From Kalaharituber pfeilii (taxonomy: Eukaryota; Ascomycota; Pezizomycetes; Pezizales; Pezizaceae), in the NCBI GenBank assembly GCA_015179045.1, contig WHUZ01000146.1:1-64000 (forward strand): DNA of 64,000 nucleotides. The letters are read 5' to 3'. A model generated the notes under the pieces. The model ran no database searches. It saw nothing but the letters and a program-made list of their open reading frames with translations, and had not been told where the DNA came from. Position numbers and translations under genes: made by a program. Position 1 is the first letter of the stretch, and each line of letters starts with the position of its first letter. Shown here in pieces: positions 11,204 to 63,023 of the stretch.

Positions 11204-12205
11204 ATGAAGAAAAGAAAGGAGAAGGCTCCAACTCTCAACCGGACGTACGAGATCAAGTACCGACTCAGTGATGAGGAGGCTAAAAAGATCATATCGCCTA
11301 TGGGAGCACTACTAATACTGATACTATCGTCACGACTGCAAGCATCGACGTCAGCACCACCATCAAAAACTCCCACCCTGCCACTAAAACCCTCCAACAG
11401 CCCAAAAGGAAGAGCTAAGCTTCTAACCTAAGAAGAAGCTTATCGGTGCCACTGAGAAAACGCTCGGAAGGGCCCCACTACTACTACCTCTCCACCAACC
11501 ACACTCGATGCCAATACTAAGGGGATTGAAGCCAGCATCGTGATACATGGTATCGCATTGAAGAAGGACCTAGGAAAGGTCAGATAGTAGTTGGAAGCCG
11601 CGAATAAAGAGCTAGGGAGGATAAAGGGGATTCACTGACTAAGGAAGAGGAATGTCCTAGAGGAGGATGGCAAGAAAACTAGTTTGGTAGTAATTTTTTT
11701 TTTTTTTTTATATTATTGATTGCTTGCCACCCTACGGGCTATGGCGATGTCTTAACTAACTACTTTCTATGTCATATAACTCTACTTCTCTCCCCTACTC
11801 TCCCAACATTTCTATCATCATGCCTAATGGATCTCTCTCTTGCTCTCTCTCTTTCAGAGGCCTTTTCACGTACTCCTCCCCCCCGACCACCTCTGCTTCC
11901 ACACTCTATACTCTTCCAGCAAGTGTTTCGTTTTTGGTGGTGATTTATTTGGTAAGAGAGATGGATATCGAGAAGGTGAGGATTAGTAAATGGAGATATA
12001 AGTCGATCTGGTATAAGTCGAAGAGAGGATGGAAGTCGGGGATTATACTAGATACTACCTACATTATGAAGAAGTATATGGGAACCACATGTATTTAGGT
12101 TGATAGTTATATTAGTTTTGTTAGTGTTTGTTCTTTTGTTAATAAAGACCCTCACTATAGCCTATCAGGCAGTATATAAGTATTTAAATACAAAAAATAA
12201 AAAAA
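11204..12205 (+). mobile_element. ORF1-only LINE derivative, decayed
   Basis: A plus-strand ORF1-like frame opens with KKRKEKAPTLNRTYEIKYRL and SDEEAKKI, equivalent to the better copy at 38382 (SEEEAKKI). Further homology follows: ASIVIHGIALKKDLGKVR near 11540, then LRKRNVLEEDGKKTSLVV, then, after a nested insertion at 11697-11932, REMDIEKVRISKWRYKSIWY. A mutated LINE tail (ctatagcctatcaggcag, about 12155) and an A-rich end to about 12205 close it. No endonuclease or reverse transcriptase lies between ORF1 and the tail, so it could move only with enzymes supplied in trans. Confidence 0.7.
11697..11932 (-). mobile_element. 5'-truncated LINE tail nested in ORF1
   Basis: A T-run followed by atattattgattgcttgcca...gggctatggcgatg is the minus-strand LINE 3' end. 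The rest matches the short C-terminal coding end of the LINE (minus-strand MIEMLGE, compare MEMLGE at about 60.52 kb). Imperfect target duplications tttggtagtaattt (11683-11696) and tttggtggtgattt (11933-11946) flank it. The right copy preserves the ORF1 reading through TSLVVIYL. Confidence 0.85.
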
Positions 12206-29583: not shown

Positions 29584-30016
29584 TGTTACGGATCACAATC
29601 GGTTACCCTGAACTGTACCAAAAACTGTACTAAGGTCGACCGGGTTCAAGGAATCTCCCACTAGCACAGTTTTGGATAACAGAATTGTCGGCGCTTAAGG
29701 AATTACGTTTTTTGGATAACAGAATTGTCGGCGCTTAAGGAATTACGCTTTTTGGATAACATCAATCCTGCTGAAGGCACGGCGCTTAAGGAAGCCCTTC
29801 TGTATCTCTCTGTTTCTGTGTTGCACTTTCCTGTATATAAAGACTCTTTTCCACCCCGTAGCCTAGGTCCCTCAAGCAATAAAACATATACTCTCCTGAC
29901 CATACTCTTTCCTCTACAAGCAGCGTCCTGCTCAAACTTGTGAGCACTACGTGACCCGCCTGACTCGATCTGCGACTCAGCGCCAGCTAATAGCCCCGTG
30001 AGGTCGGTCCGTTACA
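29584..30016 (+). repeat. 5' LTR of the young chromovirus
   Basis: TG...CA, 433 bp. It contains a 40-bp tandem repeat (tttggataac at 29671, 29711 and 29751). A TATA box tatataa at 29834-29840 is followed 38 bp later by aataaa at 29878-29883, a compact promoter/polyadenylation arrangement. No obvious TGG primer-binding site follows it. Confidence 0.93.
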
Positions 30017-31030
30017 CTTTATTGCTTCGCCTCATTCCCTCAAGAACCAGGACGCCAGCAAGGTTATGATCGAATCTGCTCCACGTTACACCACGATTAG
30101 GATCCCGCGACCACTACTCCAGATACTTAAGCCCCTTCTACGAGCCACCCTCTCTTTCGCTGCCGCCTCCTATCGAGCCCTCACAAACACCTCCCCCCAA
30201 TTCGTCCCAGTGGACGAAATCCTCCAAGTCATCCAAGTCGTTACCAGGGGAACAACCACAACCCAACAAGACCCCATCCCAGAATTTGGACACCTCTTCA
30301 TACCAGACCACAACTGCAATTGCCCCTACTGCCCAATCAACGAAGAAGACCTGTCATGAACAAGGAGCCCCACGTTGTGCTCAGAATACCCACTACACTA
30401 TACTCTGCAATCTTGAAGGCTCTTTCATACACACTCTCCCTTACTCAGACTCTCCTTGTAGTACAAAAGGACGCCCCCCTCCTCCCCCAACGATACATCA
30501 ACTCAAGCTTAGACCTCATCCAAAGCGTCAAGTATACAGAACAAGGAACGCAGACTGACTAGGAGTCAGGGTACAAAAATCGACGGGTCTACACCCAATA
30601 CCTCGCACCCATTGCCTCTCCTCAAGCTGGCCCAAGTAACTATCAAGGACTCACGATACCGGACTCTCCGTCAAACCAGGATAATCTCGTGGACCTCTAC
30701 AATCTCGCCCAACAACAACTTCAACAAGGAAACGCACTCGTCTACCAAGCCACAGACTCTCACGCCCACGACTACCTCTTACAGCAGATCAAAGAAGAGT
30801 TACAAAACCCAGAAGAGACAGCTGACGAGGACTTCCAAGAAAACGAAGAACCTGACTGGCCGGAAGAATATTTCTGGAACCCTCACGATTAGAAACTGGA
30901 AGAACCAAGGGAACCCAAGCCGGAAATCGACTTCGGAAGCTCCGCTTCCGAATCTGACACCGACTTCCCCCCACAACGAACAGCTACCCCCAATCCTCCT
31001 CCATCAAGAACCTCTACTCCCAGGCCTACC
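30017..31030 (+). other. Leader / gag 5' region of the young chromovirus
   Basis: Contains short open frames at 30066-30359 (ends NCNCPYCPINEEDLS) and 30689-30892 (MDLYNLAQQQLQQGNALVYQ; acidic end), in different frames. These may be pieces of an N-terminal Gag extension broken by frameshifts. No recognisable domain. Confidence 0.5.
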
Positions 31031-31999
31031 ATGTCCGCCATCACCTTCACAGAAACTCAGTTCAAGCAGCTGCTGGACAGCGTCAAAGGGAAATCCAACA
31101 TCAAAATCAAGGAGCCAGAAACGTACTCTGGCGAACGAGAGAAGCTCAGGGGATGGTTCAACCAGCTATGCATCCAATTCACCAACAACCCTGACCATTT
31201 CAAGGACGACCATACCAAAATTAACTACGCCTCCTCCTTCCTACGAGACACAGCCTCTAAGTGGTTCGAGCCTTATCTCTAGGATAACGACGCCCTTAAG
31301 AAGGCCTTCCCTGACTACGATGCCTTCCGAAAAGCTCTTACCGCTGCCTTCGGAATTAGTGATGAGAAAGGCCACGCACAGCAACAGCTCGACAAGCTCG
31401 CTCAGGGAGACGCCAGATTTACAGCATATTGGACTCAGGTACAGCGCCTTGCGATTGATGCTGAGATCGATGATGTGGGAAAAAATTATGGCAATCAGAA
31501 GAGGACTGGCTCCGCGACTTCGAGATTGGCTTCTAACACAGATAGGAGCCAACAGTTGGGAACTGTCAAAGTTGGTTGAGAACTTAACGGAAATAGACAA
31601 CAACTACTTCAACCAGAGAAAGGCTAACCTCCAGCTTCCCTTACCGAAACCGCGGCCCTCTCAAGGACCCCCTACACCCCAAAGGCCCTCCGCTCCTCCT
31701 AAGACGTATACCGAAGCCATTAGTCAAGGATACCACGGCCCAATGGAAATGGAATTAGATGCAGTAAGGCGGGTCTCTAAGGAAGAAAGACAGAGGCGCC
31801 AACAACAAGGCCTATGCTACTATTGTGGGGAGGGAAAACACTTCGCCTACCAATGCCCCAAACGCCTGCCCGCTCCCGCCAACCAACTCCCACCAAGAAC
31901 ACCACCTCTCCTCCTCCACGCAGGGTGAATCAAATTAATACAGATACCGCCAGTGAGGCTGGAGGTGTTAAAATCGAGGAGTTAAACGATAAAGAGTAG
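31031..31999 (+). pseudogene. Gag of the young chromovirus, broken
   Basis: Begins MSAITFTETQFKQLLDSVKG. The capsid signature is YSGEREKLRGWFNQLCIQFT and then ASKWFEPYL. A TAG follows at 31280-31282 where a CAG codon would keep the frame (DNDALKKAFPDYDAFRKAL continues it). Near the run of A's at about 31465 the reading moves to another frame (RRGLAPRLRDWLLTQIGANS), which carries the zinc knuckle CYYCGEGKHFAYQC. Downstream, the frame shared with pol ends EELNDKE-TAG at 31997-31999, one stop before pol. A one-base loss or gain and a C-to-T change explain the breaks. Confidence 0.8.
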
Positions 32000-32038
32000 A
32001 GAAGACAGGTAGCCCCTCTTCTACTCGATCCAATAGCT

Positions 32039-34255
32039 TTGTTGCTACCGCACCAAGCTCAGGATCAAGGTCAAGTCCTCAGGCGCCTCAAGTTTCTAAG
32101 AACCTTTTTTCCGTCCTACCTCAAACTTCGTTGTCACTGTGTTCTCACTGTTTCCAAGCCTCTTGCTCATGTTTTCCTAGTTTTTTCTGAAGCCCCTCAA
32201 GTCCTTTCCGAAGTTCCTATTGATTTCTCATTATGCAATGTTAGGGTCGAGTCTCTGGGAGACTCAAGAAATAATGTCGAATTTCATGCTGCGTTTTCTG
32301 AACTGAATGATTTCCCTCTCTTACTGCCTGTATCATTATCTCAAAAATCAAACTCAGAATCAAGCCAAGTCAAGACCTATGCGTTTCTAGATCAGGGCGC
32401 ACAAGGTAATCTCATGCACCCAAGGGTGATTCAAGAGGGCGGGCTCACAACCCAACCTATATCTCAAGTAGTCAACCTGATCTTTATGGACAAAACCCAA
32501 GCCAAGGACCCCCTTATCCAAGAAGGGTGTGTTGTCAAGATGAACATTAATGGCCATGAAGAGCTAATTGAATTCGGGATTACTGAAACCTGCAAGGACA
32601 ATCCTCTAGTACTTGGAATAGGTTGGCAAAGAACGCACAATATCCAAATAGATCACGACAAAAGTCAACTCCGTTTTCCCCCCTCCTGCAACCCCCACAA
32701 CTCAGGAAACCAACCCATTCAACTCCTCTATGAGCGACCAGCTACCTTAACCCCACAAAATAAGATAGCCTTCGTTAATGCTATTGCCTTCAAGACTCTC
32801 GCTAAGAAGCACCCCACCTATAGCATTAACGTTCATGACATAGACCAAGCCTTATTCCGTCAAGCAAACCAAGTATCTAGCCAAAGAATCCAGGAAATGA
32901 TACAGCACTCACACGATAGGAATCGTCAGAAGGAACGCAAAGACCCCAAGGAATACCTACCCAAGGAATATTATGACTTTATTGATGTCTTTGACCAGGA
33001 CAAAGCAGAGCAACTCCCCCCCCATAGACCAGGGATCGATCATGCCATTATCTTGGAAGAAGGAAAGTCACCCCCGTTTGGCCCTCTCTACAACCTCAAC
33101 ACAAAGGAACTCCTCGCCCTACGAGAATACCTAGAAGACAATCTAAGGAAAGGATTCATTCAGGCATCCACCTCCCCCGCAGGGGCGCCAATCCTCTTTG
33201 TACCCAAACCTGACGGATCATTACGGTTGTGTGTGGACTATAGGGGACTTAATAATATCACAATCAAGAACCGTACTCCACTTCCCCTTATCAATGAAAC
33301 TCTTGACCGACTCAAGGGAGCGAAATACTACACTAAGCTAGACATCAGGGAAGCCTATTATCGAATCAGGATTAAGGAAGGAGACGAATGGAAAACAGCC
33401 TTCCGGACCCGTTATGGACACTTCGAATACAAGGTCATGCCCTTTGGGCTCACTAATGCACCCGCCACATTCCAAGCTCACATCAACAATGTCCTCAGAG
33501 AATTTTTGGATGAATTCTGCACTCCTTATCTAGACGATATTATCATCTTCAGCACCTCACTCCAGGACCATATACAACACGTCAAAAGGGTTCTCCACAG
33601 GCTGAGAGAATATGGGCTATATGTTAAAGCGGAAAAATGCGATTTTCATAAACAACAGGTCGAGTATTTGGGATTCATAGTAACTACAGACGGCATTAAG
33701 ATGAACCCCAAGAAAGTCGAAGCAATTAAGGAATGGAAAACCCCTAGATCAATAAAGGATATCCAAACCTTTTTAGGGTTTGCTAACTTCTACAGACGCT
33801 TTATCCTAAACTACAGCAAGGTTGCAGGACCATTGTATGACCTGCTAAAAAAGGATCAAGCGTTCAAATGGGAACCAAGACAGCAGCAGGCATTCGAAAA
33901 GCTCAAAGAATCCTTCACATCTGCACCAATCCTAAAGTACTTCGACCCCTCCAGACCAGCTACCCTGGAAACCGACGCTTCAGACTATGTGGTAGCCGGA
34001 GTACTGAGTCAAGAACATGAAGGGAAAACTCACCCAGTTGCGTTCTACAGCCACCGTATGACCCCCGCGCAGTGCAACTATGAAATCTACGATAAGGAGC
34101 TACTTGCCATAGTGGACGCTTTCAAGGAATGGAGGCACCACCTCCGAAGTGATGTCTATAATGAGGATATTCAAGTATATACAGACCACAAGAATCTGGT
34201 GATGATGTCTATAATGAGGATATTCAAGTATATACAGACCACAAGAATCTGGTAA
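32039..34255 (+). pseudogene. Protease, reverse transcriptase and RNase H of the young chromovirus
   Basis: The 738-codon frame is also open upstream to the gag stop. Protease: YAFLDQGAQGNLMHP near residue 117, with DQGA in place of the common DSGA. RT: SPAGAPILFVPKPDGSLRLC, then VDYRGLNN, KLDIREAYYRI (Asp), MPFGLTNAPATFQ and YLDDIIIFS (active site near residue 497). RNase H: ATLETDASDYVVAGVLSQ (Asp near residue 646), then YDKELLAIVDAFKEWRHHL and VYTDHKNL. The frame is destroyed at 34203 by the 53-bp-offset duplication. Without it the frame would continue into 34261-34491, which carries the RNase H end ([20 protein letters not shown]). Confidence 0.92.
34150..34253 (+). repeat. 51-bp direct duplication inside RNase H (offset 53 bp)
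   Basis: 34150-34200 and 34203-34253 are identical (tgatgtctataatgaggata ... agaatctggt), separated by ga. The 53-bp gain is not a multiple of three and shifts pol exactly from the frame of 32039 to that of 34261. It is probably a replication or template-switch slip of this copy. Confidence 0.95.
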
Positions 34256-34451
34256 ACTTCATGACAACCAAAAAACTCAATCAACGCCAGATCAGATGGA
34301 TGGAAGAGCTCACAGGTTTCAATTTTAAGATTATATATAGGGAAGGAAGGAAAAATGAAAAGGCAGACGCACTCACAAGACGATCAGGAGATCTTCCTAA
34401 GGAGGGGACCACAGGCTCACACAACGATACCAAACTATCCTCAAGCCTTCC

Positions 34452-35975
34452 ATGTTTGCTCAAGTCAACACCCAGGATATCGATACGTTGATTCAGGACC
34501 AGGATCAAGACCCCATGCTCCAAACTATCAAGATGGAACTCAAAAAGGGAAGCAAACACTCCCGCCTTATTAACCTCAAGCTATGCTCAATTGATGAGTC
34601 AGGAACCCTCATGTATGACTCAAGAGTCATGTTACCCAAGTCACGGTACATTCAGGTCATTCAGGAACACCATGATGCACCACTGGCAGGACACCCAGGA
34701 CGAGACAAAACCTTCGAACTTATCTCAAGAATGTACTATTGGCCTCAGATGCGGAAAATTATAGCCCGCTACATTAACAACTGTCATAAGTGCAAACAAA
34801 ACAAGCCTCTCCGCCACAAGCCATATGGACTTCTGAACCCTCTTCAACCCCCGGAAACCCCCTGGACCTGTGTCACCATGGATCACATCACGGACCTCCC
34901 ACCAAGCCAGGGATATAATGCAATCCTTGTCGTAGTTGATAGACTCACCAAGATGGCACACTTCATCCCGGCAAAGAAAAGTGACAATGCAGAGGATCTA
35001 GCTCAACTATTTCTCCAAAATATAGTGAGACCCCATGGCCTACCTCAAGAAATCATTACAGACCGTGCCCCAATATTTAAGAACCGTTTCTGGAACACCC
35101 TCTGCAACCATCTGGGAATCAAGCCAAAATACTCCACAGCCTTCCACCCTCAGACCGACGGACAAACAGAACGAGTCAATAGTTTTGTGGAGGAGTACCT
35201 CAGACACTACATCAACTATCAACAAGACAATTGGGCCTCCAAGCTTCCTATGGCCGAATTTGCATACAACAATCACCAATCGGATACCACCAAAATGTCC
35301 CCCTTCTATGCACTCCAAGGGTTCCATCCGCGTTTTGGTACTACACCGGGGCAAGCCGTAATCAACTCCCCAGCCCAAGATCTGTCCCAGGAGCTTCAGA
35401 GCAACCATCGATACCTCCAAGAAACCATCAGAAATGCCCAGGAACGACACAAGAAATATTACGACCGTCACCATCAAGAACCTCCAAGATACCAAGAAGG
35501 AGACCAAGTCTATCTCAACGCCTCCACCCAAATCAAAACCACGCAACCCAGCCAAAAGCTCGCAGCAAAACGTCATGGACCTTTCAAGATCATCAAAGTC
35601 CTCTCCCCCCACACCTACGAGCTGGAACTACCCCCAAATCTCATGACCCACTTCCACCCAGTCTTCAATGTCACTCGCCTAGAACCCTGCTACTCTAATC
35701 CCCTTCCCGGACAGCGACAAGACCCTCCAGAACCGATCGAGATTGATGGGGAACCCGAATGGGAGGTGGAACAAATCTTAGACTCACGCCTACGCCGGAA
35801 GCGCCTCCAATACCTAGTGAGATGGGCTGGATACCCCCACTGGCCCGACGACTGGCGTACACCTCAAGAGCTTACCCATTGTGATGATCTACTCCAGGAC
35901 TTCCATTCCAAATACCCTCAGAAACCAGGACCCTTGATACCTCCTAGGAACTCGGCCTCAAAAAGGAGGACCTAA
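34452..35975 (+). CDS. Integrase with chromodomain of the young chromovirus
   Basis: The first residues ([20 protein letters not shown]) belong to the RNase H-integrase linker. A further frameshift near 34430-34450 separates it from the upstream frame, so the listed start is simply where this frame opens. Zinc-binding [11 protein letters not shown] ... CHKCKQNK. Catalytic core: [15 protein letters not shown] (Asp), [14 protein letters not shown] (Asp), [12 protein letters not shown] (Glu). [19 protein letters not shown] is the SH3-like part. The chromodomain at the end is [20 protein letters not shown] followed by [13 protein letters not shown]. The enzyme itself looks intact. The chromodomain would tether integration to modified chromatin in this family. 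Confidence 0.93.
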
Positions 35976-36408
35976 TGTCACGGATCACAATCGGTTACCC
36001 TGAACTGTACCAAAAACTGTACTAAGGTCGACCGGGTTCAAGGAATCTCCCACTAGCACAGTTTTGGATAACAGAATTGTCGGCGCTTAAGGAATTACGT
36101 TTTTTGGATAACAGAATTGTCGGCGCTTAAGGAATTACGCTTTTTGGATAACATCAATCCTGCTGAAGGCACGGCGCTTAAGGAAGCCCTTCTGTATCTC
36201 TCTGTTTCTGTGTTGCACTTTCCTGTATATAAAGACTCTTTTCCACCCCGTAGCCTAGGTCCCTCAAGCAATAAAACATATACTCTCCTGACCATACTCT
36301 TTCCTCTACAAGCAGCGTCCTGCTCAAACTTGTGAGCACTACGTGACCCGCCTGACTCGATCTGCGACTCAGCGCCGGCTAATAGCCCCGTGAGGTCGGT
36401 CCGTTACA
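35976..36408 (+). repeat. 3' LTR of the young chromovirus
   Basis: 433 bp, with the same 40-bp repeats and TATA box (36226-36232) as the 5' copy. It is preceded by the purine-rich tract aaaaaggaggacctaa. Confidence 0.93.
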
Positions 36409-38160: not shown

Positions 38161-38299
38161 GACCCATATGGTTGCTCGAGTCCATATGTTCTTATTATTC
38201 TTGTCAATCCCTAGATCTAATTCAGTACTTGGTCTTCTCTGCCTTTTCACCATAGTCTGCCATCGCCGCTGAACTGGAACCACTGAACTACTACCTGCA

Positions 38300-39169
38300 A
38301 GGCTCTCCTGTCAAGCCTCTGCCGTGGAAGCGAAAGGCGGACCCACCCACCCCAACCAGCAGCCGGAAGAGGAAGGGGAAGATGCCCGCGCCCGACTACA
38401 ACTACCAATTGAAACGCCAACTCAGCGAGGAGGAGGCGAAGAAGATTGCAGCGTCGGGCGCCACACCATCACCATCGCCACCGGTTGTGTCAGCACCGGC
38501 ACCATCACCACCACCAACGCCAGCACCAGCTCCGGCACCAAAGACACCTCCGAACCAACAACCCCCAACCAACAGAAGGAAGCCTCTCCCGAGTCAGGAG
38601 GAGGCATTCCAGAGACACCACGCCCGTCGCCGTCCCGGCAACAAGGGCCCAACCGTTACCCCTCCACCAGCAAAACCCGATGCCACCACCAGAGGTAAAT
38701 ATGGCATCGTCATACACGGAATCGCCTTGCGGAAGGATTTGGGAAAGGTGAAGGCGTGGCTGGAAGCCGCGAACCGGGATTTGGGAAGGATAACCGGGAT
38801 TCGCTGGCTGAGGAGGAAGACGATTTTGGAAGGGGAGGGCAAGAAGACGAGTTCGGTGGTGGTGTACTTGGACAAGGAAATGGAGGTTGACAAGGTGAGA
38901 CTTAGCGGGCGATGGCTGAAGTCGGTCCGGTATGAGCCGGAGAGGGGACGGGAGTAGGGGATTGTACCGGGCGCCACCCGCGATAGTGAAGAGTCCGCGG
39001 GTATCACATGTAGTTAAGTCAGAACGGATAGTGGGGTTAGGATTGGTGTTTTTAGGCGGGAATGTTTCTGTTGTGGTTTTTTAACCTTCTTTTATTTATT
39101 TAGCATAACATCGCCATAGCCCTTAGGGCGGCATGCGATAAATGATATAAAAAAAAAAAAAAAAAAAAA
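38300..39169 (+). mobile_element. ORF1-only LINE derivative with poly-A tail
   Basis: An ORF1 of at least 191 codons is followed within about 150 bp by the LINE 3' hairpin (atcgccatagcccttagggc, about 39109) and about 21 A's ending at 39169. There is no endonuclease or reverse transcriptase. The last 170 bp before the A's match the tail copy at 58600-58739 (gggttaggattggtg, ttaaccttcttttatt). The same ORF1-plus-tail design is seen at 11.2-12.2, 42.6-43.8 and 61.2-61.7 kb, so it is a recurrent non-autonomous type. A target duplication was not resolved. Confidence 0.8.
38382..38957 (+). CDS. LINE ORF1-like protein, truncated
   Basis: The 191-codon frame starts MPAPDYNYQLKRQLSEEEAK; the frame is open upstream (PTSSRKRKGK), so the start is uncertain. 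After a Pro/Ala-rich spacer comes a conserved block: GIVIHGIALRKDLGKVKAWL, EAANRDLGRITGIRWLRRKT, then KKTSSVVVYLDKEMEVDKVR and LSGRWLKSVRYEPERGRE. This has the layout of the nucleic-acid-binding ORF1 domain of fungal LINEs. The zinc knuckles that normally follow are absent, since the ORF stops at TAG right after this block. Confidence 0.7.
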   Translation: MPAPDYNYQLKRQLSEEEAKKIAASGATPSPSPPVVSAPAPSPPPTPAPAPAPKTPPNQQPPTNRRKPLPSQEEAFQRHHARRRPGNKGPTVTPPPAKPDATTRGKYGIVIHGIALRKDLGKVKAWLEAANRDLGRITGIRWLRRKTILEGEGKKTSSVVVYLDKEMEVDKVRLSGRWLKSVRYEPERGRE

Positions 39170-42183: not shown

Positions 42184-42209
42184 ATGACTGCATAGGGGGA
42201 TAGGAGACT

Positions 42210-42211
<2 letters not shown>

Positions 42212-42247
<36 letters not shown>

Positions 42248-42284
42248 CATTACTCGCATGCCGCCCTACGGGCTATGGCGAGGT
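42212..42284 (-). mobile_element. Tail-only LINE-1-family insertion, 73 bp
   Basis: About 31 T's plus aatttcattactcgcatgcc...ggctatggcgaggt, between gataggagactgt at 42199-42211 and 42285-42297 (perfect 13-bp duplication). Confidence 0.95.
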
Positions 42285-42422
42285 GATAGGAGACTGTGGA
42301 AATTGCTTAGCTGGCTGTATGATAGATCACTAGTACATTAAATCATAAGCGAGTATATATATTACATATAGGTACATCGTACATTCATGTTCGCCGCTGG
42401 GCCAGGTGTTCGTGGCTGGGCT

Positions 42423-42611: not shown

Positions 42612-43800
42612 TGTTTTTTATTTTTTTCTGGTATATCATTACTCGCATGCCGCCCTACGGGCTATGGCGAGGTTATTTACATATGAAGATAAGGTAGAAT
42701 AAACTCCCGCAGCCTAAATATTAACCCCAATCCAATAGTAATGGGGGGAGAAAAACAAAACCAGCATAGAACCCACAGCCTGAACAGTAATGTAGGGAGA
42801 AAGAGATGGCATCAATGCATAACAGAACGGTGTCCCACAATCATCACTAATCATGTGGAAAAATCAGAGAACTCGAGCATGTAAACTTCACTTCACCAGT
42901 CGAGGTGTCTTATCCCACTCATACTGGTCGTACTTCAGCCATTTCCCTCCTAATCTGACTCTCGTTGGTTTTGAACCTGCCTGAGCTCCGGATCTACTTT
43001 GCTCCTGTAGGTATATCACAACTAAGCTAGTGATTTTCCCCTCATTCATGAGCTTTTTCTTTTTTCTCAACGATCGAATGCCAGTGATCTGCGCTAGCTT
43101 CCTGTTTTCGCTTGCAGCCGATTGCGGACGTTGCCTAGGTTCTTCCTCAGAGCAATTCCATGTACCGCAATGGCAGGGTGCGAGCATCGCTGAATCTGTA
43201 GTGATGTACATTTTTGGAACTCTTTTGTAGTAATGTATGTCATATCACCTTCCTCTGAAGGACTGGCAGGGCAGGTAGGTAGGTGTGGTGATGTATACCT
43301 TTATCCGGAGGTTGTATCTGTATGCCTCAGGAGGCAGTTCCACTGGTTCTACTGAATGTAGCACTATTATAGAGCTCGTCAGTACTTCGGCCGCCTCTGG
43401 TGTTGGCTCCACCTCCAGCAGCATGTATATTCGATGGTCATTACCGGTGGTGGTAACGCAGGTCTTGGTACTATCTAAATAACCACTCTGACCTCGCTGA
43501 GCTGTAGCCCCTGTATCGTTTGTGATACCAAGCTCTTCCCTACTCCCACTAGTGCTACACGAAACTGAATATCCTCCATCGCGGTATGGAACGTTTCTTG
43601 ATATTTTTCTTGCACAGTAGCTCTGAGGGGTGGCTACTGTCACGTCCTCGAGTATCTCATATATCTCTATCAACTTTATGAAGATATCGTGAACTTTTGG
43701 GTCCTCTATGGGTGGGGTCTCCTTCTGCCCTGGAGAGCTTCTCTGTGCTCTCTTTAGTAGTATTCTCTTATTGACTTGTTGTTCCTCTTTTAAGTGCCCC
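42612..43800 (-). mobile_element. ORF1-only LINE derivative, minus strand
   Basis: A T-rich start and catgccgccctacgggctat (about 42646) form the inverted LINE tail. Upstream in element sense lie ORF1-type sequences: 42888-43211 (ITGIRSLRKKKKLMNEGKIT, SLVVIYLQE, GGKWLKYDQYEWDK), then a frame break, then 43245-43795. No RT or endonuclease. A target duplication was not found. Confidence 0.7.
43245..43795 (-). CDS. Upstream open frame of the ORF1-type element
   Basis: Open from about 43795 without stops. Its first in-frame ATG-like start is near 43673; upstream residues VNKRILLKRAQRSSPGQKET and DPKVHDIFIKL read as normal protein. It ends TPTYLPCQSFRGR. It could be the N-terminal half of ORF1 of the copy at 42.6 kb. 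It has no similarity I can see to the 38.4 kb ORF1 N terminus, so it may belong to another subfamily. Confidence 0.4.
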
Positions 43801-44183: not shown

Positions 44184-44236
44184 TTTTTTTTTTTTTTATC
44201 ATTAATCTCGTGCCGCCCTATGGGCTGTGGCGATTA
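44184..44236 (-). mobile_element. Tail-only LINE-1-family insertion
   Basis: T-run, atcattaatctcgtgccgcc and ctatgggctgtggcgat. No clear target duplication. Confidence 0.7.
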
Positions 44237-44463
44237 AAAATGGAGATCACCTGACTAAAAATGGAGTAGAAGATGTACATCCCTTATACTACTTGGTTTT
44301 ATGTTGTGTGCGACTGATGCAATAGATATATGCAAGTTCACAACTATTTTTTTATTTTTATTTTTTTCATTACTCGCATGCCGCCCTAAGGGCTATGGCG
44401 AGGTGTTAACTACTACGCTGCGCCGTCTTCCTACTCTACATCACCCTTTCTACTTCTCGTCCC

Positions 44464-45090
44464 CTACTCCGGTTCCCTCAGGAGGTCAATGACCTTCTTC
44501 TGCGGGTCCCCGTCCCCTGATTTCTTTGGCCTCCTTATCTCCTCCTCCTCCCCTGGCCGTCTCCTTCTCCACACCCTACACCTCTCCATCACGTGCTCAA
44601 AGCTCTCCTCCCCCTCCCCGCTCCACCGACAGTCCGCGTCCGCCGCCTTCCCCACTCTATGCCTCCACGCCTTCAGGCGTTTCTTACCCAGTAGTCCCGC
44701 TATTTTGGACACCTCATGGCCCAGCCTCTGTAGAGGTCTGTAACCCAGCCCCAATCTCCCCCTCTCTGCAGCCCTCTCCCTTCTCGCTCTCTGGATAATG
44801 CCTGGTTCGGTGACTACCTCGCTCTCGTACTGTAGGGCTGTCCCTACTTTCGCCGCCATGTCCGCCTCCTCCTTTCCCGGGATACCTTCGTGACCCTTCA
44901 CCCACATCACCGCTAGGTCTTCCTCCCCTCTCTTGATCCTTTCTTTCCAAGCCTCCCTTACTTCCTGATTCGCTCCGAGGTGAGTCGGGGATCCCTCCGC
45001 AATCCTTCTTAAATTCGTGATCGCGACTCTGGAATCCGTCAATATCAGAATCTCCCCATCCTCCCTCATCACCTCGCTAATTGCCAACAA
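44464..45090 (-). pseudogene. LINE RNase H and C-terminal zinc motif
   Basis: RNase H: ILILTDSRVAITNLRRIAEG (Asp), MWVKGHEGIPGKEEADMAAK (His and final Asp). After GRLGLGYRPLQRL comes the C-terminal zinc-like block CRWSGEGEESFEHVMERCRV, with the second Cys changed to Ser. It ends DLLREPE. The first RNase H part (GIYMDGSRLKERAGAGRVAE) lies beyond the nested insertion at about 45230. This domain order is typical of Tad-like fungal LINEs. Confidence 0.85.
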
Positions 45091-45113
45091 CTCCGTGTCA
45101 TTGCTGGTCGCTT

Positions 45114-45150
45114 TTTTTTTTTTTTTTTTTTTTCATTACTCGCGTGCCGC
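45114..45150 (-). mobile_element. 37-bp tail-only insertion nested in LINE RNase H
   Basis: About 20 T's plus cattactcgcgtgccgc only, between perfect 14-bp duplications attgctggtcgctt (45100-45113 and 45151-45164). Removing it and one duplication copy restores the RNase H frame of the host LINE. Confidence 0.96.
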
Positions 45151-45490
45151 ATTGCTGGTCGCTTGGTATCTCAGGTACTTCGACTTCCTCCCCCGCTCCG
45201 CTACCCGCCCCGCCCCAGCCCTCTCCTTCAGCCTGCTCCCGTCCATGTAAATCCCCTCCAGCCTTCCGCGATCACTAAGTTCATCTGTTCCATCCACTCC
45301 TCCATTTCGGCGTCTCTCGGGAGTGAGTTTACCATTGCCAATGTCAACTGGCTCCGATGGTTCGTGGAGCCTCTCAAGTACACCGCCTCCGGGTCCTCGT
45401 GTCTGATCCTCTCGTCCTGGAACCTCAGTGCGCGAGCCTCTACCCTTGCTGCCACGAATTCCGCAAAAGTCCCCACTGACTCCAAGTTCG

Positions 45491-46105: not shown

Positions 46106-46489
46106 GAGAACGATTTTTTTTTTTTTTTTTTTTTTTTTATATATCATTACTCGCGTGCCGCCCTGTGGGCTATGGCGAGATTAGTTACATATAATAGAAG
46201 GAAAAGAAATAAAGAAATAATCTCCGTCACCCATACTGAGATGTATATGGTCCGTAATGAAAAAAAATAAAGAAATGCTCTCCATCATCCATACTGAGAT
46301 GTATATAGTCCGTAATGAAAAGTGCTTATAGTAAAAGGGAAGAAAATAAAGAAATACTCTAGAGTCCTTCAGATATTCGCCCAGTCCACTATGTCCACCA
46401 GGGGGTCCTTTTCCTTGTTCTTGGGTGGCTTGATCAGGTCTTTCATTCCTCCCGGCCATCGCTTTTTCCACACCCTGCATCTGTTGAGC

Positions 46490-46680
46490 ACGTGCGCGGT
46501 GGTTTCCTCCTCCTTCCCACACCATCAGCATTCCGGGCTGTCGGCTTTGCCGATTGAGTGTTTCTATTTTCTTAGCCCCTTGCACCCCAGTAGGCCTGCC
46601 AATGCTGAGACTCTTCGTCCCAGTCGTGTCAGGGGTCTGTAGCTGAGTTGCAGTCGGTTTCTCTCCGTGGCTCTCCAGGT
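46490..46680 (-). pseudogene. LINE ORF2 C-terminal zinc region
   Basis: Minus strand: RLGRRVSALAGLLGCKGLRK, then a block IGKADSPEC (stop) WCGKEEETTAHVLNRCRVWK. The CX2CX7-8HX4C arrangement is the usual LINE C-terminal motif. A related copy lies at 62137-62310. Confidence 0.75.
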
Positions 46681-46682
46681 CC

Positions 46683-47318
46683 TTAATAATTGTTGTATCC
46701 TGCTTCGGTCACGATTTCGTCCTGATATTGGAGGTGAGTACCTATTTTGGCGGCTCTGTCCGCTTCTGTATTTCGCTTGACTCCTTTGTGGCTTTTAACC
46801 CACATCACTCCCACGTCTAAGTCGCTTCTCCGAACTCTCTCCTCCCACTTCCCCCTGACCAGCTCTGCGGCGCCTTCATGTGTGGGGTCTCCCCGTGCTA
46901 TTTTCTGGAGCTTAGTGATTGCCACTTTGGAGTCTGTGACTATTAAGAGTTCTCCCTCCTGGTGTTCCAGAGCTTCGCCTATGGATATAAGCTTCCCATC
47001 GTTCACCGTACTCTGTTTCCCCAGGCATAGTGACGTTGAGTGGCCTTTATTGTATGTGCCGGCACTGGTGAGGTCGTCGATTCGGCACCCGTCTATGTAG
47101 AAGGTTTGCCAGCCCTCGTCTTCTGCATCAGCTATGGTCCTCTCCCATTGCTCCTTCTCGGTGTCTGTTGGGAGGGTTGGTAGGACGACTAGTAGTAGGG
47201 GGTGTCTGTGGTTTAGAGATCCTCTCAAGTGTTTGTTCTCTATCTTTTCTCGTAGTAGTTCATTGGGGAAGCGTAGAGCCCGCGTCTCTACTCTCCTGCA
47301 TTCTCCCTCCAGAAACAT
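46683..47318 (-). pseudogene. LINE RNase H domain
   Basis: TFYIDGCRIDDLTSAGTYNK (first Asp), ELLIVTDSKVAITKLQKIAR (Asp), MWVKSHKGVKRNTEADRAAK (His, Asp). Downstream YQDEIVTEAG equals YESEVVTEPG of the 44.4 kb copy. The region before it (KHLRGSLNHRHPLLLVVLP) matches the RT-RNase H connection. Confidence 0.85.
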
Positions 47319-47499
47319 GTATACTGATTCTAGATTTGCGAGGCTCTCGACCAGGTCCTGTCGCGTCTCCCATGGGGCGGCAGTGATTCTTTATGATATC
47401 CCATACTGCCATTTCTCCAGGTCCCTTGCCTTGATGTTCTGTGGAGGACCCTTCACGTACTCTTGCCATGCTCAACAGCCCCATGTGGCGATACTGCAG

Positions 47500-48144
47500 G
47501 CTGCACTGGTATATATTTAGCGTTTCTTGTCTGGATATAGGTGTGTTAGTCTTCCTAATACATTCCATGCTGCCTTGCTAAGAAGTAGTCGCTTTCGGTG
47601 GGATTCTTGGAACTTTAGTTCCCAATCTACCATTAGACTCACCAGTTTGTAAGCCGGTCCTTTTACTCCCACTATCAGGGTCTCGGATTTGTTCGGGTCG
47701 GTTTCGAAGCCGTGTAGCGCCGCTTCCTGGGTGAGAGCCGTTTGATGGGCCTTGATTACTTCAATTTACTTGCCACAGTTTCGTGATTGATGGGTGTAAG
47801 ATCACGCGGTGGAAGTCATCCACATATGACCTAGTAAAATTTCTCTGTTCGGCCTTCTCGACTACTGGCGCTATGCCTATGAGGAATAATACCGAGGAGA
47901 GTGGTGACCCTTGTGGGGTGCCATCCGTCATTCTGCTCGTAGCATGCTTCTGTCTATCCCAGACCAGGTTGAAGTCGTTTGGTATCAAGAATGCTTCTAT
48001 AAAACTTGCGAGGTTGAGGTTGACTGTTTTTATGCATGCTACTACCCTGTCACTTCTGAGGAAGTTGAATGCCGACTTTATGTTGTCCCCAACTAGTACT
48101 ACCCAGTAGTTCTTTTTCAGCCTGTGGTCAACCTCCTTTAGCAC
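47500..48144 (-). pseudogene. LINE reverse transcriptase core
   Basis: WVVLVGDNIKSAFNFLRSDR (block A; the usual first catalytic Asp position is shifted or mutated), DGTPQGSPLSSVLFLIGIAP (block B) and RSYVDDFHRVI (block C, YVDD). Further fragments to about 47500 follow. Upstream, 48144-48510 has RxDKLSSWVSIILLNTVAKL-like sequence equal to LINE motif 2 (WRPISLLNxxxKLxEKV), with stops. Confidence 0.88.
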
Positions 48145-48518
48145 TTGTCACTGTAGATCTTCGGCTCCTCCTCTGTGGCGTCTTCCTCCGAGTCGTATTT
48201 CTTGGAATAAGTCATTCTATCTCTGTAGAATATCAGTGATGACTTTTTGCTCCAGTTTAGCTACTGTGTTAAGTAGTATGATTGACACCCAGCTACTCAG
48301 TTTGTCCCTCAGTCTCCCTTTCTTTAGGATCATCACGACCTCGAAGCCTCTTGCAAAGTCGTAGTTGCCATTGATGTATTCCACTATTTTTTCCCTTACT
48401 GCCGTCCAGAGGATTGTACCTTTCAGTAGCTTTAGGAGTCCGTATTGTATGCTATCTGGTTTGGGGGTAGATCTGGATTTGGTCCTAGACAGTGCTTTGT
48501 CTATCTCCTTTCTAGCTT

Positions 48519-48794
48519 TTTTTTTTTTTTTTTTTTATTTCATTACTCGCATGCCGCCTGAAAGGCTATGGCGAGGTTTGTATATTGACTAAAAGAAAAC
48601 TGGCTAATTACATGTGGGAGAGGTGAGCCGAGCCTGCCTTACTTCCTTCCTCTGTCCGGCTCGTACTGTACACCTCCGTTCGCAACCATTTTCCCCCCAA
48701 TTTGACCTTCCCGATCTCTACCTTTGTCTTTGTGTACAGTACCACCGAGCTTGTCTTCTTTCCCTCCTCTTCTAGGGTGGTCTTCTTCCGTAAC
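48519..48794 (-). mobile_element. Truncated ORF1-type insertion nested in ORF2
   Basis: A T-run and cattactcgcatgccgcctg...ctatggcgaggt are followed by ORF1 C-terminal sequence (minus strand VGKVKLGGKMVANGG type, YEPDRGRK). It is bounded by perfect 14-bp duplications ctcctttctagctt (48505-48518 and 48795-48808). Removing it rejoins the host ORF2 reading across DPEQARKE / IDKALSRTKS. Confidence 0.95.
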
Positions 48795-48809
48795 CTCCTT
48801 TCTAGCTTG

Positions 48810-49100: not shown

Positions 49101-49113
49101 TCTTTCTTCGGAT

Positions 49114-49130
49114 CGGCATGCGAGTAATGA

Positions 49131-49165
<35 letters not shown>
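49114..49165 (+). mobile_element. 52-bp tail-only insertion, plus strand
   Basis: cggcatgcgagtaatgatct plus about 31 A's, between perfect 13-bp duplications tctttcttcggat (49101-49113 and 49166-49178). Only about 20 bp of LINE body was copied, less than the 3' hairpin. Confidence 0.96.
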
Positions 49166-49169
<4 letters not shown>

Positions 49170-49178
49170 TCTTCGGAT

Positions 49179-55260: not shown

Positions 55261-55419
55261 TGCCACTACCCTCTTCCCAATAGATCAACCAGCGCCAAGA
55301 AGATCATGAATTTCAGGAGTGTGATGATAGTGCAGATAATCACACTCAGGATGTGACTGTTCTGCAGTCACGTAGGATAGTTCAGAAGGATACTGAAGTA
55401 GATACCGAAGTACTGGATT

Positions 55420-55907
55420 GTGACAGAGCCAGGAATAAGACAAGAATACAAAGCATCCAGAGCTGCCGAAAGAAACCAAGCCGGACTGAACTACCGCCCA
55501 CTCCAAAAGGTCGACAAACGCCGGTATCTGGCCACAATGGCAGGGATATTGGGCAATAAGGGACTGAAGGAATGGAGATTCAGGATTGGAAAGGCCACCT
55601 CCCCGGAGTGCAGATGGTGCGGCGAAGCGCCGGAGACCTGGGATCACATAAAGAGTAGCTGCTCGGCATGGAACAGGAAAACCGCAAGAGGAGCAGAGGT
55701 GATAAGACAGTTAGATAAGGACACAAACATGGCGGAAATATTGGAATGGGCGGGGGAGGAATAGGACGGTTCAATTTTCTTTACTCTTTCATTATCGATT
55801 TTTCTTTACTCTTTCATTATCATTTTTCCATCATACCACTTTAACTAAACATCGCCATAGCCCATAGGGCGGCATGCGATTAATGAAATAAAAAAAAAAA
55901 AAAAAAA
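55420..55907 (+). mobile_element. 5'-truncated LINE-1-family copy with perfect duplication
   Basis: Bounded by gaagtactggatt at 55407-55419 and 55908-55920. It carries the end of ORF2: LNYRPLQKVDKRRYLATMAG, CRWCGEAPETWDHIKSSCSA (CX2CX7HX4C, intact), ending LEWAGEE. The 3' UTR has a duplicated tttctttactctttcattat. The hairpin is at 55851-55880, and the poly-A ends at 55907. It is the cleanest 3' end in the window. Confidence 0.96.
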
Positions 55908-56134
55908 GAAGTACTGGATTAGGGGGTCTGGTGGCGTGGTGGATAACGATATGAACATGGGTATGAACATGGGTTGTATGTACTAGTAGACTAGCGGATG
56001 CTTTAAATATATATCTGGCTAGCGCCTCTTATCCCTACTTCCATCCAGTCAGAAAAGTGACTGGATGGAGACATTCCGGGAACGTTTCTCCGCCAGTCTT
56101 TGTACACTGACACTACGCCTGATGGACGCGGCAA

Positions 56135-56168: not shown

Positions 56169-56208
56169 ATATCATTCCTCGCATCCCGCCCTAGGGGCTA
56201 TAGCGAGA
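56142..56208 (-). mobile_element. Tail-only LINE-1-family insertion with (TA)n tail
   Basis: atatcattcctcgcatcccg...ctatagcgaga with a (TA)n run in place of poly-T. Duplications ggcaacttata(t) at 56130 and ggcatcttatat at 56209. Confidence 0.85.
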
Positions 56209-56590: not shown

Positions 56591-56836
56591 GGCCCGGTCG
56601 GGGGGGAGAAGGACATCAGGAAACCCCCCAAGACGGAGACAGGGACACACTGGCAGGACTGCTGGAATGGGTTGGACGGTCATAGGCTTTCTTAGTATTC
56701 ACTTTCATTTCTTCTCCCATTTTCTCTCATTTTCTTCCAATCTGTTATCCCCTCCATGTATTTAAACAATACCTCGCCATAGCCTCACAGGCGGCATGCG
56801 AGTAATGATATATATAAAAAAAAAAAAAAAAAAAAA
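56591..56836 (+). mobile_element. 5'-truncated LINE-1-family copy
   Basis: Contains the coding end (LAGLLEWVGRS type), 3' UTR and cctcgccatagcctcacagg, cggcatgcgagtaatg with poly-A to 56836. Imperfect duplications atctacagtagtgtgg (56577) and atctacgtagtggg (56837). Confidence 0.85.
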
Positions 56837-57190: not shown

Positions 57191-57585
57191 ACTGATGTAG
57201 TTGGTAGAGGCTTGCTACACACGGATGAGGCTTGCAATATCCATGCATTTATTGTTTACACTAGACAAATACCTACTAGACGAGAACAACCTACTAGTAG
57301 GGATTGATTGATCGTCTCTATTTCTTTAGCCTCAAATAAATAAAATAATAACACACCGTACTAGTAATTGTTTTATTGCATACTTATCCATTTGCATTTT
57401 CATGACAGACATACGAGAATATAAGCTAACAACTAGATATGCTCTATACTATATGCAAGGACCATAGGGCAGAAAGGTATCATGGAGAGAGGTATGTACA
57501 GCAGCAGGTAGGAGTAGTGGTATATGAGTGACAGTGAGTACGAATACCAGCAGGTGGTATGAGTGATAGTATAATGGAGGTGGTA

Positions 57586-57640
57586 TTTTTTTTTTTTTTT
57601 TTTTTCATTACTCACGTGCCGCCTGGTAGGCTATGGCGAG
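57586..57640 (-). mobile_element. Tail-only LINE-1-family insertion
   Basis: T-run, cattactcacgtgccgcctg, gtaggctatggcgag. Perfect 12-bp duplications atggaggtggta (57574-57585 and 57641-57652). Confidence 0.95.
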
Positions 57641-57953
57641 ATGGAGGTGGTAAGTGCAGAGGGTTACCATCTGCCAGGCTAAAAAGATACTTAACTAGCA
57701 ATGCTTACTATACTCATTTATGCGACCGCAACGCCATCGGCTATCATACATCGCTCATGTCATATTTGCATCAACCAATCGCCCATCTATGGTTGCAGCA
57801 GTTTCCCCGTAACAGATAGCAAGCAATAGTCATAATAGTATATATCTGATATAACTGACTTTTGGCAAGTATAGAGAATTGCCAGTCCATTAGGTTAAAA
57901 AGACAATTCAGAGTAGGGCAAAGGAGAAGGGGACCCACTAGTGGAACTGATGA

Positions 57954-58599: not shown

Positions 58600-58739
58600 A
58601 GTGTAGGGTTAGGATTGGTGACTTTTGGCGAGAATGCTTCGGTCGTTGTATTTAACCTTCTTTTATTTTAGCTAAACATCGCCATAGCCCATAGGGCGGC
58701 ATGCGATAAATGATATAAAAAAAAAAAAAAAAAAAAAAA
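58600..58739 (+). mobile_element. 3' end of an ORF1-only LINE derivative
   Basis: tagggttaggattggtgact, ttaaccttcttttattttag and the hairpin tail match 39028-39169. Poly-A ends at 58739. Confidence 0.85.
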
Positions 58740-59343: not shown

Positions 59344-59399
59344 TTTTTTTTTTTCTTTATTTCATTACTCGCGTGCCGCCTTATAGGCTATGGCGAGGA
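59344..59399 (-). mobile_element. Tail-only LINE-1-family insertion
   Basis: T-rich run, atttcattactcgcgtgccg, ccttataggctatggcgag. Duplication accaatcc (59336-59343 and 59400-59407). Confidence 0.9.
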
Positions 59400-59836: not shown

Positions 59837-60042
59837 TTTTTTTTTTTTTTCCTTTTATTTTTTTCCTTTTATATCATTACTCGCAGGCCGCCCTATGGGC
59901 TATTTTTTTTTTTTTTTTTTATTTCATTACTCGCATACCGCCTATCAGGCTACGGCGAGGTGTTAAGTACAGAATGCGTGAATCGCAGATGGATAGATAA
60001 GAAAAGAGCGTAAAGGAAAAATAACTATGGGCTATGGCGAGG
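59837..60042 (-). mobile_element. Tail insertion containing a second tail insertion
   Basis: The outer copy begins with the T-run at 59837 and atatcattactcgcaggccg. It is interrupted after gccctatgggctat. The inner insertion 59904-60024 (T-run, atttcattactcgcataccg, a further 60 bp) has perfect 11-bp duplications ctatgggctat (59893-59903 and 60025-60035), after which the outer tail finishes as ggcgagg. The inner element therefore cut within the target's own hairpin sequence. Confidence 0.9.
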
Positions 60043-60397: not shown

Positions 60398-60651
60398 ATC
60401 TGTTCGATCGGTGCAGAGTATGGAGACGAGATGGCCGGGGGGAGAGGAGCACGTTAGGAGACTGCCGCGGGACAAAGGGGAGGGGGGGGAGGACCCGCTG
60501 AAGAAGTTGATGGAGATGCTTGGAGAGTGAATTTTATTTATTTTCTGCTGTCCCTAATCTTTTGTCTTTACATTACATTACTATATTAAACACATCGCCA
60601 TAGCCCATAGGGTGACAAGCGATTAATGATATAAAAAAAAACAAAAAAAAA
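60398..60651 (+). mobile_element. 5'-truncated LINE-1-family copy
   Basis: Carries the last coding part (DPLKKLMEMLGE, then TGA), the 3' UTR, catcgccatagcccataggg and an A-rich end. Duplications acactgcttt (60388-60397 and 60652-60661). Confidence 0.92.
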
Positions 60652-60997: not shown

Positions 60998-61008
60998 AAT
61001 AACCTTTC

Positions 61009-61061
61009 ATCGCCATAGCCCATAGGGCGGCAAGCGATAAATGAGATTAAAAAAAAAAAAA
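61009..61061 (+). mobile_element. 53-bp tail-only LINE-1-family insertion
   Basis: atcgccatagcccatagggc, ggcaagcgataaatgagatt plus A's. Perfect 11-bp duplications aataacctttc (60998-61008 and 61062-61072). Confidence 0.95.
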
Positions 61062-61229
61062 AATAACCTTTCGTCCCTTATTATTTTTTTCCTTTGATCA
61101 CCTATCCAATGCTGTTTCTAAGTCGCGAGTACATTCCTTGTCCAGAATACTATGAGTGAGAGACTGCACAGCCGCAGAGCTGAGTTTTTCGATTAGAAGT
61201 GGTATTTCGGTATTTCTGGTGCTGCTGGG

Positions 61230-61720
61230 TTTTTTTTTTTTTTTTTTTTTTTTAATATCATTAATCGCATGCCGCCCTAAGGGCTATGGCGATGTCTAGT
61301 TACATATGGAATAAAGGAAAGTTAAGTGTAAAAGTAGAAATCCCCAGAATTCCTGTGTGAAGGGGAAGTGGAATGGCAAGGTCTAAGGGGAAAACAGTCT
61401 CCGTCCGGGTCTACTTCCGTCCCCTGTCCCACTCGTATTGGCTGGCCTTCAGCTTCCCCCAAGTCTCACTTTGTCCAGCTCTGCCTGACCCTCCAGGTAT
61501 ACCACAACTGAGCTGGTGACCTTGCCTTCACTCGCCAGAATTGCCTTCTGTTTCAGCCATCGAATTCCCGGGATTTTTCTCAAGTCTTTGTTCGATGCCT
61601 CCAACCATCTCCGGACATTACTGAAGTCCTTCCGGAGGGCTATTCCATGTACTATGAGGCCGTTTTTCGTTCTGGTGGTGGCCTCCAGGATGTCGGTTGG
61701 GGTTTTTTTCCGAGTGGGGA
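61230..61720 (-). mobile_element. ORF1-only LINE derivative, minus strand
   Basis: The T-run (61230-61253) and inverted tail are followed by a 3' UTR and the ORF1 C-terminal block. In minus-strand reading this is GIALRKDFSNVRRWLEAS, PGIRWLKQKAILASEGKV, TSSVVVYLEGQAELDKVR and a WDRGRK end at about 61425. ORF2 is absent. Confidence 0.8.
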
Positions 61721-62039
61721 TGGGGGGGTTTGGCGGGGAGCAGCATTTGATTGGTGCAAGGGCGGTGTTTCGGGGCCTCCTATTGGGTCTTGGCGCCGGA
61801 GGGGGTGTGGTTGCAACAATGGTGGTGAGCTGAAGATTCCTCGTAATTTCACCCCTCGGGGGAAATTTGCAATAGCGGGTATTTGGGTATAAAAATTAGA
61901 TCAAAAGACTAAGCACGCTGAGAGCTTTCGATCTATGTAGGTTTCGCTGGGGGGGACGTTGTGGTTGTGGAGTCGCTTCCAAACGCTCGTCCTGGGGTGG
62001 TTGTTGTCCTCGTATACTCCGGAGAGGAACGCACCTACA

Positions 62040-62320: not shown

Positions 62321-62520
62321 ATAGCGCGCCGGGTAAATAGCTTCACCCTAAAAGGTGACCTCTGACAAGCATTTCGGGATGTCGGTACAATACATACGGG
62401 TAAAAAGGATGCGACCTGAGTGCGTATTGCAGTCTCAAAAGTGTATATAAGTGGTGTTCATGGCTGTGTGTTCGCCGTTCTTTTTCTCTTTACGCAACCT
62501 CTTGTATTTAGTTTCTACTA
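62321..62520. other. Short spacer with TATA-like motif
   Basis: gtgtatataagtggtg at about 62440 resembles a promoter, but no gene start follows. Confidence 0.3.
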
Positions 62521-62880
62521 AGTAGAGTGGTTACCTGCTGTGCCGACCCGCTGAACTGCTGTCCTGCTGTGAACCTCGTACTGGCTCACTCTCAGCCATC
62601 TCCCACCTAGTCTCACCCGGTCTGCTTGCGTTGTGTCCTCCAAATACACTACTACCAAACTTGTCTTCTTGCCTTTCTCCCTCAATGTCGTCTCCTTGAT
62701 GAGCCATCTGATCCCTGTTATCCTCCCTATGTCATTGTCGGCTTCCATCCATCTCCGAACATTCCCGAGATTCTTCCTCAGGGCTATTCGGGGGACTACG
62801 ATGCCAGGCTTGGTGGTGGTGGCACCGGGGTGGATGGGTGTGTCAGGGGTCTGGCTTTGGTCTGGGGGATTTGAGGGGTT
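62518..62880 (-). pseudogene. LINE ORF1 C-terminal fragment
   Basis: Minus strand: RIALRKNLGNVRRWMEAD, DIGRITGIRWLIKETTLREK, KKTSLVVVYLEDTTQADRVR, LGGRWLRVSQYE. No tail is visible at the left end. It is the fifth ORF1-type copy in the window. Confidence 0.75.
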
Positions 62881-63023
62881 TGGGGTTTCGGCTTGAGTCT
62901 ATTATGATTGTATGTCAAATAGAGCAATTTGAAGTTCAATGAGCTGCGGAAAAATCTCAATACCGCAACACCCTGCAAACTAACATCATGACATACTTTC
63001 GGTATCCAAACCTCCTTCCAGCG

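Follow-up and report, generated by a model that had tools for sequence, protein, structure and literature searches.

A two-stem hairpin lies at the 3' end of a LINE copy in the genome of Kalaharituber pfeilii, a fungus known as the Kalahari (desert) truffle, and it raises the question of whether its stems are kept by compensatory change and whether it is the structure that a LINE reverse transcriptase recognises in its own RNA. An initial annotation of this DNA had proposed both. Here, "the window" is the whole stretch of 64,000 nucleotides that was analysed (C53:1-64000), and the K. pfeilii genome used for the counts comprises 78.03 Mb in 360 contigs.

Results

The hairpin and its copies in the window

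In the hairpin at 55851..55880 (+), ATCGC (55851-55855) pairs with GCGAT (55876-55880) to form the outer stem and GCCC (55860-55863) pairs with GGGC (55867-55870) to form the inner stem, at the positions first assigned to them. The first outer pair is A-T, the internal loop is CATA/GGCAT, and the triloop is ATA. A TAATGA box and an A-rich tail follow directly 3' of the hairpin (55881..55907, +). The hairpin and its tail close a 5'-truncated LINE copy (55420..55907, +) that consists of an RNase H C-terminus, a 3' UTR, the hairpin and poly-A, and that is flanked by a 13-bp target-site duplication at 55407-55419 and 55908-55920.

The tail is repeated across the window, as had been noticed: a 34-base hairpin pattern with up to three mismatches gave 17 matches in the window and none in 100 shuffles, and a profile search gave 24 hairpin hits at E<=1e-3 and 26 at E<=1, partial hits included. 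Among the copies are one with an outer C-G and an inner T-A pair (56773..56808, +), one with an inner T-A pair and the loop ATA (59356..59397, -), two with an outer A-T pair (58678..58719, +, and 60594..60635, +, the latter altered on the 3' side of the internal loop), two with an outer C-G pair (42636..42671, -, and 56172..56207, -, the latter without a long A tract) and one with a single outer-stem mismatch (44199..44234, -). Some copies that depart from the fold had been read as carrying later mutations, and this reading needs correction at two of them. At 57.6 kb the supposed departure, GTGAG, forms a G.U wobble and still pairs; at 42.55 kb the inner stem is indeed damaged and the outer stem is kept through a further double change, CTCGT/ACGAG. 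C-to-T and G-to-A changes are, by eye, numerous in the tails at 10170-10279 and 11707-11748, which lie where the window is AT-rich; repeat-induced point mutation would give such a pattern. Rfam covariance models run on window positions 36000-64000 produced seven chance-level matches, none at the gathering score and none a LINE element.

LINEs and RRM-coding elements share the hairpin

The hairpin lies tens to about 200 nt 3' of RNase H frames and is followed by TAATGA and poly-A. In the window it is found at the 3' end of a LINE with an RNase H frame at 44464-45132 (hairpin 44361..44402, -) and of another with an RNase H stretch at 46378-47390 and a reverse transcriptase stretch at 47376-48078 (hairpin 46138..46179, -). 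Pfam matches in these LINEs are RVT_1 and RNase_H. A cysteine-rich ORF1 end and an endonuclease-like stretch were also noted by eye; an endonuclease-like piece in the window had no Pfam match. Because an RNase H domain is present, the elements are probably not LINE-1, the family to which they had been assigned. An RNase H domain after the reverse transcriptase presumably favours LINEs of the I/Tad1 type, and tailed fungal relatives are named Tad1 in print.

Elements for a predicted RRM-like protein also use the LINE tail, at window positions 38256-38957, 61449-61895 and 62518-62898. The ORF at 38256..38957 (+) has a predicted RRM-like C-terminal third and is followed by a hairpin with an outer A-T pair (39110..39145, +), and the ORF at 61449-61895 has a hairpin of the same outer type (61252..61293, -). 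A short RRM-type element with an outer C-G and an inner T-A pair (48519..48794, -) lies between LINE pieces, within 14-bp duplications at 48505-48518 and 48795-48808. RRM-coding elements with the shared tail are flanked by target-site duplications, and among the 42 matches listed for one RRM-like protein of the window, homologues were from K. pfeilii only. Mammalian HAL1-like (ORF1-only) L1 derivatives are non-autonomous elements that keep one RNA-binding protein and the LINE 3' end. The K. pfeilii elements had likewise been called ORF1-only, a term that the comparison did not support: in contrast to HAL1-like elements, their RRM-like protein showed no detectable similarity when set against one LINE ORF1. 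Neither the window nor 26 loci yielded a tRNA with ARAGORN, run in a bacterial setting in which degenerate heads could be missed. Elsewhere in the window, zinc-knuckle, reverse transcriptase and integrase-like frames lie between identical repeats of a 40-bp unit (29670 and 36062), and by eye the stretch 29670-36153 is an LTR retrotransposon.

Stem pairs change together

Covariation was measured in 288 kb comprising the window, 200 kb of C2 and eight loci. A profile search at E<=1e-3 gave 122 full-length tails, and the 97 that were complete and ungapped were kept, partial and gapped tails being left out. The outer pair 1-30 is standard in 94 of the 97 (C-G 63, A-T 28, other 6) and the inner pair 13-17 in 95 (C-G 73, T-A 21, other 3); the remaining seven stem pairs are identical in 88 to 94 of the 97 tails. 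Among 73 distinct tails, no other of the 630 column pairs is as strongly associated as 1-30 and 13-17 (G 80.1 and 71.5; next 30.3), and none of 500 shuffles reached either value.

In the whole genome, a pattern without any fixed stem base matched 2868 copies and the reversed pattern none. With the rest of the inner stem fixed and only the named letter pairs counted, the inner pair 13-17 is C-G in 1832 copies, T-A in 629, T.G in 28, C.A in 15 and purine-pyrimidine in 1. With the rest of the outer stem fixed and the counting restricted in the same way, the outer pair 1-30 is C-G in 1631, A-T in 646, C.T in 9 and A.G in 6. The excess of T.G over C.A (28 vs 15) is not significant (two-sided p 0.066). 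The outer pair changes by transversion. The inner pair keeps its pyrimidine 5' and its purine 3', and base identity therefore seems to count besides pairing. The 97-tail counts, the 73-tail association and the genome counts thus agree with the initial proposal that changes on one side of the stems are matched on the other.

Loop bases had been said to vary freely, and the triloop is indeed the most variable stretch: variability across copies is highest there, together with the single columns 1, 25 and 30. Among the 97 tails, the internal-loop strands CATA and GGCA and most stem columns are nearly fixed.

RNAalifold, run on 48 aligned tails, recovered the same two-stem fold with double changes in five of nine pairs; these rows were picked by hand, some of them for their rare double changes. 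Folded singly, 10 of 13 30-mers have the proposed fold as their minimum-energy structure (the exceptions are L024_8171 and two CTGC copies), with modest stability against shuffles (z -1.15 to -2.66 for the 13 folded). Since single hairpins are only modestly stable, the case is built on covariation and not on folding energy. An alternative register, in which GCC pairs with the second GGC, scores lower, and the pair 7-25 that it needs fails in 16 of 45 rows. At least three copies (L016:6703-6732, L085:519-548 and, by pattern, C2:296932) form a subfamily whose inner stem is damaged, GCCC...CTGC. Their existence implies that an intact standard inner stem is no absolute requirement, unless the GCC/second-GGC register serves in its place or the copies are segmental duplications. 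Both L016:6703-6732 and L085:519-548 could fold in the second-GGC register.

Changes recur on trees built without the tail

The covariation could also reflect a founder effect, in which a small number of tail types, perhaps two, each had a single origin followed by inheritance, so that the paired changes amount to few events. Some inheritance is present, for the outer-pair type is associated with other columns (column 1 with column 31, G 30.3). Against few founders, at least 22 different triloops occur among the 100 T-A copies listed, a third outer type, G-C at 1-30, occurs in one case (L024_8171), and rare double changes occur at pairs 2-29, 4-27 and 5-26 among rows partly picked for such changes.

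The founder reading was further weighed on trees of the element bodies. The RNase H tree was built without tail sequence, with tail linkage checked, from 24 of 27 rows (L058_802p, L021_7093m and L028_122m dropped), and the tree of RRM elements from 21 of 22 rows (L028_7741p dropped; the broken-stem CTGC copies kept). The RNase H tree requires at least six changes of the outer pair and at least five of the inner pair, and likelihood ratios favoured linked over independent change (p 7e-6 outer, 6e-5 inner). On the RRM tree, which has several weak forks, the outer pair changed at least four times and the inner pair twice (p 2e-5 and 2e-4). These p values are rough because the linked-change fits reach extreme rates, and the loci were mostly picked by tail type and not at random. 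Other row sets gave similar counts: with 27 of 32 RNase H rows, at least two of which (L028_122m and L058_802p) are short hairpin insertions by their duplications, six outer and five inner changes (p 1.5e-6 and 1.6e-5), and with 20 of 23 RRM rows, without the two CTGC copies, five outer and one inner (outer p 4e-6). When only strongly supported branches are used, three inner pairs and one outer independent pair are left on the RNase H tree, which is a point for the founder reading, and two of each on the RRM tree, too few for a sign test; in these pairings the two sides changed jointly in every outer case and in most or all of the inner ones. Stem pairs therefore change together, repeatedly, on tail-free trees. 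The six outer and five inner changes on the RNase H tree argue against two founders, the origin that the initial annotation had named as fatal to its proposal, and we regard the founder effect as the least probable of the alternatives.

Template switching could instead have moved whole tails between elements, making the co-changes on body trees swaps of ready-made hairpins. Unrelated bodies do share the tail, and some insertions are nested within tails. However, L022_6366 and the group L079/L060/L035, 75.6% identical over 360 columns, differ in the hairpin only by GCCC-TTA-GGGC against GCCT-TCG-AGGC, and L034 and L005 likewise keep the rest of the hairpin and differ only in the inner pair and triloop. 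Swaps would, moreover, still require several covarying source types. Such tail exchange is thus a very improbable source of the co-changes.

Insertions that begin at the edge of the hairpin

Sequence conservation begins at the first base of the hairpin: in 90 dissimilar copies it does not exceed 0.38 bits between -40 and -2 and reaches 0.8 at -1. Where insertions begin was determined from target-site duplications, found as direct repeats between the base after poly-A and the sequence 5' of the element, with cut-offs of 9 bp (near) or 11 bp (far). The 75 tails that qualify comprise 30 with a 5' junction at -4..+2 relative to the hairpin's first base, 2 at -30..-5, 6 within the hairpin and 37 further upstream. 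When the sample is confined to the window, 20 C2 stretches and 8 loci, 17 of 43 junctions lie at -4..+2, and requiring at least 11 bp throughout gave 27 of 69. Three shifted controls produced seven chance repeats, none at -4..+2. Within -60..+36, 27 of 35 junctions fall in 7 of 97 positions (binomial p 2e-24). Many tail-only copies are thus separate insertions that begin at the hairpin edge.

These hairpin-only inserts consist of the hairpin, TAATGA and poly-A, measure 50-73 bp and have duplications of 9-15 bp, all 30 of them different. Three lie in the window: 73 bp at 42212..42284 (-; 13-bp duplications 42199-42211 and 42285-42297), 55 bp at 57586..57640 (-; 12-bp duplications 57574-57585 and 57641-57652) and 53 bp at 61009..61061 (+; 11-bp duplications 60998-61008 and 61062-61072). 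Two further window insertions are truncated inside the hairpin, at 45114..45149 (-; 15-bp duplications 45099-45113 and 45150-45164) and 49114..49165 (+; 13-bp duplications 49101-49113 and 49166-49178).

Hairpin-only inserts made up 17 of 121 tails in the first sample. Forty fresh tails were then fetched following the genome match list, leaving out earlier-sampled copies and C1:336817; one was without poly-A, and 4 of the 39 testable tails were hairpin-only. Seven of the fresh tails had duplications, four with the junction at -4..+2; of the remaining three, two have a duplication in common and may represent a single event. Extrapolated to the 2868 strict tails of the genome, and provided that these behave alike, the proportions give some 300-400 hairpin-only inserts.

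The uniform 5' end in 30 of the 75 duplicated-site insertions would also suit a micro-SINE with its own transcription, in which case these copies would not be by-products of LINE RNA. The 27 hairpin-only copies that were typed are, however, of several types (C-G/C-G 10, C-G/T-A 7, A-T/C-G 6, others 4), so they have several sources and the process is not tied to one subfamily. In addition, the 0-4 extra bases mostly resemble the LINE 3' UTR, and 30 nt leave, on general knowledge, little room for an internal promoter. We consider a micro-SINE quite unlikely.

The hairpin might, on the other hand, serve 3'-end formation, stability or export of the element mRNA instead of reverse transcriptase recognition. 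It sits just 5' of TAATGA(A/T)ATAAA and poly-A, the usual place of 3'-processing signals, and the onset of conservation at its first base would suit such a role. A function in RNA processing by itself leaves the hairpin-edge insertions and the nearly fixed internal loop unexplained, although the former could result if the hairpin stabilised the RNA by halting decay that proceeds from the 5' side. On balance, this account is unlikely.

Some insertions have landed in the hairpin of an older tail: window 59868-60041 (-), L031 1-170 and L008 2232-2427. In the window, a short insertion (59904..60024, -) separates parts 60025-60041 and 59868-59903 of the older tail, is bounded by the duplication ATAGCCCATAG at 59893-59903 and 60025-60035, and has at its own 3' end a hairpin copy with an inner T-A pair and the loop GAT (59918..59959, -). 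The duplication is ATAGCCCATAG(GGC) in two of these insertions and a one-base variant in the third; its recurrence inside hairpins suggests that insertion may favour tail DNA as a target. At 66 of 75 duplicated sites a C or T stands just ahead of the duplication, a possible nick preference, the first duplicated bases being blurred by poly-A.

Discussion

We propose, with a probability of roughly 0.8, that the 30-nt hairpin, TAATGA and poly-A form the 3' recognition unit of a large and diverse group of RNase H-bearing LINEs. The proposal of a structured 3'-end RNA that is kept by compensatory change and common to autonomous-type, ORF-carrying non-autonomous and tail-only copies is upheld. Three marks of a stringent-type tail hairpin are found here, namely a location at the extreme 3' end, compensatory change and the same tail on non-autonomous partners. 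Recognition of the hairpin by the reverse transcriptase is what this pattern of sequence change suggests, and the hairpin-only insertions lend it extra support.

A LINE-encoded reverse transcriptase would bind the hairpin RNA. Because the triloop is free to vary, the probable contacts are the stems and the internal loop CATA/GGCA, which is nearly invariant. The bound enzyme may then bring the poly-A to the nicked target and begin to copy. Hairpin-only inserts could come from RNA templates that themselves end at the hairpin edge, such as an mRNA shortened from the 5' side as far as the bound hairpin, or from copying that stops 0-4 nt past the hairpin. There is, in our estimate, about an even chance that the hairpin, TAATGA and a short A-rich tail alone make a complete retrotransposition template. 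If so, the hundreds of inserts of about 50-75 bp would be genomic footprints of a LINE reverse transcriptase on its RNA hairpin and among the smallest retroposons, with their sharp 5' ends marking the edge of the protected or copied unit.

According to the available portion of the report on the stringent-type LINEs UnaL2, ZfL2-1 and ZfL2-2 (the latter two from zebrafish), ORF2 binds a stem-loop in the 3' tail that is needed for retrotransposition (PMC4176376). Like UnaL2 and ZfL2, the K. pfeilii LINEs have a small stem-loop in the 3' tail RNA. Specificity in ZfL2 lies in the loop, with general recognition of the stem, whereas in K. pfeilii the triloop is free and there is very little variation in the internal loop or at most stem bases; that portion of the ZfL2 account makes no mention of hairpin-only insertions (PMC4176376). 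By analogy with ZfL2, recognition may have shifted from the loop to the stems and internal loop. Shared-tail LINE/SINE pairs are described in fungi, in the text available, as Mg-SINE with MgL/MGR583 in Magnaporthe and SINE2-1_BG with Tad1-24_BG in Blumeria (PMC3747384), and stem-loops are stated for Tad1 LINE/SINE pairs (PMC5135761). As compared by description only, these too are non-LTR elements of fungi that have a 3' end in common and a stated stem-loop. Their partners are tRNA-derived SINEs, unlike the RRM-coding elements and bare hairpins of K. pfeilii. Plant L1-clade LINEs and SINEs, as far as the same source covers them, have a 3' hairpin in the last ~50 nt with compensatory stem changes (PMC3747384). 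They resemble K. pfeilii in this location near the 3' end and in these changes; in the plant elements, stem bases vary and the loop and 3' flank are fixed, in contrast to the variable loop and mostly fixed stem seen here. Stringent LINE tail hairpins and fungal Tad1 LINE/SINE stem-loops are thus already known. What is added here is the hairpin-only insertions, of which our literature searches found no description.

The choice of RNA by the reverse transcriptase has been settled for few LINEs. In K. pfeilii, thousands of natural hairpin variants provide a map of what is kept (stems, pairing and internal loop) and what is free (the triloop), and the hairpin-only inserts with clean duplications offer a minimal template that is open to direct testing. 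Genomes may also plausibly owe some of their very short insertions, which are easily overlooked, to inserts of this kind.
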